In this document: positions 3,494-37,766 of the stretch, one piece after another
How positions within the stretch are numbered: position 1 is the stretch's first letter
Layout: each line of letters opens with the position of its first letter
Assembly (NCBI RefSeq): GCF_006970445.1
Contig: NZ_CP033877.1
Coordinates: 2,612,750-2,676,749 of the forward strand
DNA from: Stenotrophomonas maltophilia
Lineage (GTDB): Bacteria > Pseudomonadota > Gammaproteobacteria > Xanthomonadales > Xanthomonadaceae
Direction of reading: 5' to 3'
DNA: 64,000 nt
Translations under genes and position numbers: made by a program
The notes under the pieces: generated by a model
Seen by the model: only the letters and a program-made list of their open reading frames with translations
What the model was told of the DNA's origin: nothing
Databases searched by the model: none

Positions 3494-3516
3494 GGTAGTG
3501 CCAGCCGCTGGCGGCT
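3494..3516. repeat. SMAG-type GTAG palindrome
   Basis: GTAG head at 3494-3497 followed by the hairpin CAGCCGCTGGCGGCTG. It matches the GTAG-headed palindromic repeat family described for Stenotrophomonas maltophilia. Confidence 0.75.
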
Positions 3517-3551
3517 GTGCGTTCGGGCGCTTGCGAAGCGGTGCTTCGCAA

Positions 3552-3628
3552 GCAAAGCGCCCTCACCCATGTAAGCTCGGTCGCCGCATCCATGCGGCTC
3601 ACGCCCCCGCAACCGGACCCACCCCGCC
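3552..3628 (+). repeat. Half copy of the variable-stem hairpin element (copy C)
   Basis: This copy has the distal 35 nt of the conserved loop (GCCGCATCCATGCGGC core) and a right arm at 3604-3628 identical to the right arm of the full copy at 37551-37652, followed by the same tail (TTCGACAATTC). The expected left arm is missing. In its place is an unrelated hairpin (GCGCTTGCGAAG...CTTCGCAAGC). It looks like a truncated or recombined copy. Confidence 0.7.
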
Positions 3629-3666: not shown

Positions 3667-3688
3667 GTAGCCGAGCCATGCTCGGCTC
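3667..3688. repeat. SMAG-type GTAG palindrome
   Basis: GTAG at 3667 runs into AGCCGAGCCATGCTCGGCT, a clean hairpin of the same class as those at 48237-48333. Confidence 0.75.
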
Positions 3689-3772: not shown

Positions 3773-3874
3773 GGTGGGGCGGTGTCGGAGTGCGGGGTGT
3801 CAGCCGCATGGATGCGGCTGCCAAGCCTACAAGGACGTACTTGCGGCGTCCCCGCACTCCGACACCGCCCCACC
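3773..3874 (-). repeat. Variable-stem hairpin element, full copy A
   Basis: The left arm 3773-3797 and right arm 3850-3874 are perfect 25-nt reverse complements. They enclose a 52-nt loop that contains the palindrome GCCGCATGGATGCGGC and the block GGACGTACTTGCG. The loop is nearly identical to the reverse complement of the loop in the copy at 37551-37652, but the arm sequences of the two copies differ. The flanks are also similar: GACARTT-type sequence on one side and GTTGCT repeats on the other. Confidence 0.85.
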
Positions 3875-37458: not shown

Positions 37459-37550
37459 GGGCGCGCGCGGCCGGGCTGCGCCCGGCACCCGCCGAGGCAA
37501 CATCAACGTCAACAGCCAGAGCAACAGCAACAGCTGGGTTCCTGCAGGCA

Positions 37551-37652
37551 GGCGGGGTGGGTCCGGTTGCGGGGGACGGCGCAAGTACGTCCATGTAGCC
37601 TCGGTCGCCGCATCCATGCGGCTCACGCCCCCGCAACCGGACCCACCCCGCC
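37551..37652 (+). repeat. Variable-stem hairpin element, full copy B
   Basis: The 25-nt left arm (37551-37575) and right arm (37628-37652) are perfect reverse complements. The loop is 52 nt (37576-37627) with the same core palindrome GCCGCATCCATGCGGC and the block CGCAAGTACGTCC as copy A in inverted orientation. The arm sequence differs from copy A but equals the single arm of copy C. Confidence 0.85.
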
Positions 37653-37676
37653 TTCGACAATTCGCCGCAATCTGCA

Positions 37677-37766
37677 GTAGATCCACGCCATGCGTGGATG
37701 CTCTTCGATCAATCGTCGAATTAATCGATTTCGATGTAGATTCATCCACGCATGGCGTGGATCTAC
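37677..37766. repeat. Inverted pair of SMAG repeats
   Basis: GTAG plus ATCCACGCCATGCGTGGAT (37677-37699) and its mirror ATCCACGCATGGCGTGGAT plus CTAC (37744-37766) flank a 44-bp AT-richer spacer. The second repeat ends 10 bp before the AraC start. Confidence 0.8.

Follow-up and report, generated by a model that had tools for sequence, protein, structure and literature searches.

A 64,000-nucleotide stretch of the Stenotrophomonas maltophilia genome (contig NZ_CP033877.1, positions 2,612,750 to 2,676,749; here called the window) carries two long hairpins, copy A on the + strand and copy B on the - strand, whose arms differ in sequence and yet pair without a mismatch. What keeps these arms complementary, and in which strand and molecule does their pairing matter? 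We find that A and B are members of a large, dispersed, intergenic RNA-like family.

Copy A agrees with a preliminary description of this DNA: two 25-nt arms (3773-3797 and 3850-3874, + strand, placed by arm pairing) are 100% complementary with 52 nt between them. Copy B (5' arm 37628-37653 and 3' arm 37550-37575, sense strand -, placed in the same way) likewise pairs perfectly around a 52-nt loop, but its stem is 26 bp long, one more than described. With B read on the - strand, the left arms of the two copies differ at 10 of 25 positions and the right arms at 10 of 25, each hairpin remaining self-complementary as claimed. The loops had been called nearly identical; with 8 differences in 52 positions (85% alike) they are somewhat less so. 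Seven of these differences fall on helix positions (T-A to C-G, C-G to G-C, CA/TG to GA/GA); the remaining one is the N (any base) of an ANGGA loop. RNA folds predicted for the sense strands reach -83 kcal/mol for A and -80.4 kcal/mol for B (z -11.0 and -8.3 relative to dinucleotide shuffles, none of which folds as well as A or B), and antisense folds are about as stable (-84.2 and -79.7 kcal/mol).

The 52-nt loop is composed of two hairpins, P1 and P2, set on the outer stem. P1 consists of a T-A or C-G pair, a G-C pair, a CC/GG, TG/CA, CA/TG or GA/GA step and a five-pair helix closed by a hexaloop, while P2 has two three-pair helices separated by a 5-nt bulge and capped by a hexaloop. In A, P1 (GCCGC-ATGGAT-GCGGC) lies at 3803-3818 with its hexaloop at 3808-3813, as placed by sequence, alignment and covariation, and P2 lies at 3825-3847 with the hexaloop AAGGAC at 3831-3836, as placed by covariation. 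In B, sequence and covariation place the hexaloops ATGGAT of P1 at 37612-37617 and ATGGAC of P2 at 37589-37594 (- strand).

Using B as a BLAST query against its own genome (4.55 Mb, single contig), we found dispersed copies, extracted and aligned 67 of them, and built a covariance model, R1, from the alignment. Paired cells make up 96.7% of these 67 copies, compared with 78.0% after shuffling and 41-47% after sliding. Both-sided changes occur at 27 of the 40 base pairs and in all four helices, and every cell of the P2 helices is paired. In P1, two positions lack a partner in 31/67 and 32/67 copies, largely because of the GA/GA step; this tandem G.A is present in 73 of 229 collected copies, the remainder having mostly Watson-Crick steps. 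The hexaloops read ANGGAN in 125/126 P1 and 124/126 P2 hairpins of own-genome copies (130 taken, parsed by pairing alone), where the N of P2 is T, G or A, and in 68/70 P1 and 70/70 P2 hairpins from outside the bacterial family (73 taken, 3 unparsed), where all four bases occur as N. Bases one and four of the P2 bulge (3840-3844 in A) are C..G or T..A in 198/198 copies, with the variants CTTGC, TTTAC, TTCAC and TCTAC; the structure as drawn does not explain this, and other bulges occur as well in other genera.

Among the best 150 candidates scored in the genome, R1 gives at least 146 matches at E up to 1 and at least 130 at 69 bits or more. The matches form 97 loci, 49 with two copies and the rest with one. 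All 49 two-copy loci are divergent; some partners are weak, down to 23 bits, and both members exceed 60 bits in 42 pairs. The 88 loci that include a strong copy are all free of overlap with predicted genes, as judged with a crude predictor of our own that allowed overlaps of up to 20 nt. By the same crude calls, 44 of the 49 pairs are faced by the 3' end of a neighbouring gene; of all 49, 17 lie between convergent and 27 between same-direction genes. Partners differing at three or fewer arm positions are absent from the 41 testable pairs (5.1 expected, P 0.001), and avoidance of long inverted repeats could account for such dissimilar arms. Two outcomes that the preliminary description took as refuting, unpaired arms elsewhere or one arm sequence common to all copies, are not seen as a rule, and truncated or imperfect copies do exist.

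Strand bias of stem mismatches and change of the arms

Each Watson-Crick pair is one transition away from G.T and another away from A.C, and strand-symmetric mutation, unless selection is strand-specific, thus predicts the two mismatches at 1:1. Read on the strand with the GGA loops, the outer stems of 198 copies contain 131 G.T and 16 A.C mismatches, or 72 and 14 when distinct contexts are counted (p 1.4e-10). These copies are what was kept of the 229 collected, after removal of 31 whose Watson-Crick pairs numbered below 19 of 25, and their loop counts are partly preset by the search patterns for both loops. The ratio is 34:6 in the 67 copies collected without recourse to a structural model, 53:11 in 122 of the 130 own-genome copies taken with fixed 22-bp arms and no loop filter (p 1e-7), and 20:7 in 61 of 72 copies of other genera, again with fixed 22-bp arms (p 0.019). 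From the G.T excess, the GGA-loop strand therefore appears to be selected for its single-stranded fold, with RNA as the simplest reading. Some of the excess could stem from a mutation bias linked to transcription, but T-A pairs of the young subfamily described next also lean toward G.T (8:1).

In one subfamily, 84 young copies show how the arms change. They contain 42 two-sided Watson-Crick changes, 30 one-sided changes to G.T and 18 one-sided mismatches, many of these cells sharing ancestry. Beside this stepwise compensation, whole elements are replaced or homogenised: among the locus B orthologues compared, L257, L274 and L277 carry the arms and loop of another subfamily in place, and one Xanthomonas genome holds 43 further copies that match the query element, along with its arms, at 96-100% identity. 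Local purifying selection was considered at the Xanthomonas cstA locus, where the elements are 89-90% conserved and the spacer 41% in 8 of 9 species, and was dropped, the copies within a genome being homogenised. An inverted target-site duplication as the source of the arms was likewise set aside on inspection by eye: several G298 copies have motifs in common at both arm ends.

Known relatives and distribution

The preliminary description knew of no family with this layout. That was mistaken: it is the layout of Rfam TwoAYGGAY (RF01731), which, according to the available text, was published in 2010 as a candidate RNA from the human gut, Gammaproteobacteria and Clostridiales. The RF01731 model has 19 matches in the genome, all of which overlap R1 matches and 16 of which extend over the full model, but none reaches the gathering cut-off of 43 bits (best, 42.8). 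Nor do any of 20 loci of other genera, while 2 of 23 other genomes have matches that reach it. Since the own-genome matches overlap those of R1 but stay below the Rfam cut-off, we name the element TwoAYGGAY-like. It resembles TwoAYGGAY, as far as the accessible descriptions go, in its external stem of poorly conserved sequence (PMC4333381) and, in part of its copies (73 of 229), in the tandem G.A of a stem. It differs in part in its loops, whose second base is not confined to Y: among 126 parsed own-genome copies (130 taken), P1 is ATGGAT in 125 and P2 is AYGGAY in 71 (ATGGAC 46, ATGGAT 25); in the other 55, P2 either carries G or A as its second base or has no GGAY. The available parts of the TwoAYGGAY descriptions mention no long covarying stem, no copy number of 130 or more and no divergent pairing. 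CsrA binding was proposed for TwoAYGGAY in 2014, in the part of PMC4333381 available to us; in the open-access literature searched, as far as its accessible text goes, we found neither an assigned function for the motif nor a description of the present repeat. To judge from these searches, what is new is the scale of the family, the long stem with its covariation, the strand test, the arrangement in divergent pairs and the loop modules described below.

The element was rightly held to be distinct from SMAG repeats. SMAG and other GTAG-tagged repetitive extragenic palindromes (REPs), as well as bacterial interspersed mosaic elements, are likewise dispersed intergenic palindromes, often paired and found in the same spacers, and REP-type palindromes adjoin the element. 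However, REPs are described, in the accessible parts of PMC3733652 and PMC2817692, as palindromes of 20-40 bp with a GTAG tag, whereas the element is a three-way junction of about 104 nt without a conserved tag, and the GTAG-like tract is absent from its CCC-type copies. A 66-bp GTAG palindrome in the available portion of PMC2613905 is shorter than the element and is set apart by length only. The small RNAs (sRNAs) CsrB and RsmZ and Xanthomonas RsmU also present GGA in hairpin loops, but they are discrete sRNAs and the element is a high-copy repeat. RsmU, a 3' untranslated region (UTR) RNA that sequesters RsmA (PMC7694677), is described there, in the text available, as confined to Xanthomonas and has four GGA motifs, compared with two here. 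For the R0, R1 and R2 repeats of P. fluorescens (a name unrelated to our model), the accessible part of PMC2718517 describes a core that varies in size, flanked by inverted repeats and given without a consensus, and identity with the element is unproven either way. Matches to Rfam microRNA families were discarded, all being below cut-off and reflecting the long hairpin only.

Searches with R1 at the level of genus, class and phylum used stricter filters and counted from the best-scoring candidates. Within the genus, 49 of 61 genomes have matches, the own one included, as do 67 of 369 gammaproteobacterial genomes (59 of 271 genera), where the arms are different but paired; in a phylum sample of 398 genomes, the share from outside Gammaproteobacteria not being given, all 31 with matches belong to that class. 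Arms of 25-27 bp in the own genome compare with 26-43 bp in 44 of 47 copies from four other genera and shorter ones in three. In those genera the arms are mostly copy-specific, with a subfamily in G245 sharing its arms and others having short motifs in common close to the loop. All six of the close pairs found there are divergent. Divergence is not universal, because same-direction arrays with a period of about 200-230 bp exist in G427 (near 2058675-2059393) and G604 (C1 94417-95433), and another in G626. The draft contigs L146 and L147 end within copies of the element; the repeat probably breaks assemblies and lowers the counts in drafts.

Proposed CsrA/RsmA docking and competing explanations

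An ANGGA motif in a hairpin loop, present twice per molecule, is the signature of the CsrA/RsmA dimer. We lean, with some reserve, toward reading the element as a structured RNA module of the GGA strand for CsrA/RsmA docking with the stem as scaffold, the two small GGA loops being probably the predicted docking sites. The long stem ends in a junction with two short hairpins bearing A-N-G-G-A-N hexaloops, and these loops would serve as the two sites of one dimer. Copies would lie in 3' UTRs or intergenic transcripts, a divergent pair yielding one sense copy from either reading direction, and together they might bind, buffer or be governed by RsmA. The sequence of the scaffold would matter little, its pairing being kept by selection, partly via G.U steps, while subfamilies would spread through copying, insertion and whole-element conversion. 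Consistent with this, CsrA is found in 56 of the 57 element-bearing genomes that are at least 90% complete, compared with 280 of 314 overall (p 0.0097, kinship ignored).

Several observations weigh against docking. The minimum-energy folds of A and B reproduce the outer stem and P1 but pair the P2 region otherwise, and in the A fold CAAG pairs with CUUG, which would cover part of ANGGA; P2 as drawn therefore rests on covariation. Copies were collected via BLAST, loop patterns or a loop-aware model. The G.T excess is weaker in other genera and could also reflect selection on the GGA strand as a single-stranded DNA hairpin. CsrA is unseen in 5 of the 67 genomes that carry the element, among them G255, which is 98% complete, and over all 369 genomes the co-occurrence has a p of 0.059. 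Modules lying in the loops destroy the GGA of the host loop.

A more ambitious proposal, which we put forward tentatively and would not bet on at even odds, is a distributed CsrA/RsmA-docking repeat: at least 100 portable two-site modules, in this genome mostly in divergent pairs, on a pairing-constrained stem of free sequence. If so, the target set of a global regulator would spread like a repeat, and transcription from either side would expose one sense module. A global post-transcriptional regulator may face a repeat-borne pool of binding sites. With a close kin of TwoAYGGAY at more than 100 copies in one genome, and with evidence of selection on the fold of its GGA strand, the CsrA hypothesis becomes directly testable, and the compensatory evolution of long stems can be followed in numerous natural replicates.

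Non-autonomous mobile DNA, which we consider unlikely but worth weighing, would also account for high copy number, intergenic placement, occurrence across the genus and strand-specific pairing. The hairpins of one strand would be substrates for a transposase or recombinase, as in REP/RAYT, IS200/IS605 and attC systems, the GGA loops would be recognition features, and pairing would be kept since only well-folded copies move. Modules sitting at one point of the loops fit this picture, as do sites at locus A that lack the element, for example L241 and its 40-nt palindrome. Yet the boundaries at locus A are ambiguous, with like palindromes on both flanks, and the empty sites could be deletions; the free N inside ANGGA fits CsrA, and the defining feature of REPs is lacking.

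It is improbable that the copies are terminators of the ordinary kind, or 3' hairpins that stabilise mRNA, multiplied along with REP clusters. The gene 3' ends facing most pairs, the pairs between convergent genes and the terminator-like palindromes at locus A would suit such a role, but 27 of the 49 pairs separate same-direction genes, no T run directly follows the right arm in the subset of copies inspected, and a terminator would need no two conserved ANGGAN loops.

The preliminary description had offered selection on structure or joint rewriting of both arms, and selection is supported by the two-sided changes and the G.T excess, while joint rewriting is seen as whole-element replacement. 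Arm-to-arm DNA correction, by template switching or palindrome correction and free of any RNA function, is very doubtful as the main route: although arms differ widely among copies yet pair, and some double changes (G-C to C-G) have no one-step standard-pair intermediate, hairpin repair would be expected to erase both G.T and A.C, the former outnumbers the latter severalfold in the four sets above, and the inner hairpins covary too. Double-stranded cruciforms, like arm-to-arm repair, are disfavoured by the mismatch pattern.

Loop modules and surroundings of copies A and B

A structured module of about 80 nt with CAGGA-type hairpins lies in the P1 hexaloop, directly after ATGG in 12/12 finds, at L239, L245, L265, L276, four own-genome places and others; the loci were retrieved by way of the host element, and the module may occur elsewhere too. 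All 12 modules have a CAGGACG-type hairpin, which the search pattern included, and 11 of them a second CAGGA hairpin, in the manner of CsrB repeats. A different module, starting with GTGAGGGCGCTT, lies in the P2 hexaloop directly after ANGG in 21/21 finds. These include L226, L234, L145 and others, and the own genome has 15 such places, counting that in the window.

The window copy of this second module (3500-3566, - strand; the visible part, its left limit not being fixed) lies in the P2 loop of a truncated third copy of the element, overlooked in the preliminary description. This copy, at about 3567-3628 on the - strand, is divergent to A and is supported by a covariance-model match of 37.6 bits and by orthologous loci. 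It retains the 5' arm (3604-3628), P1 (3583-3598) and the first half of P2 (3567-3576), and breaks after CATGG.

The spacer at locus A also holds a REP-type palindrome (3667-3687, + strand) that by eye resembles REP Smal1 in the available part of PMC2817692, and an inverted pair of REP-type palindromes adjoins copy B (arms 37677-37700 and 37743-37766, strand not assigned). We compared site A across 30 loci, the own one included, in 7 of which the left gene is absent. Element-free intergenic regions of 8-40 nt occur in 7 of the 30, that of L241 being a bare 40-nt palindrome, while occupied sites have a similar palindrome on each side, a palindromic duplication of about 19 bp. From these sequences, insertion with duplication, a hallmark of miniature inverted-repeat transposable elements (MITEs), and deletion between palindromes are not separable at site A. 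Spacers orthologous to locus A contain several REP-type palindromes and a GGGGTCAGATCCGTTTTCC-type palindrome, as though these were landing sites.
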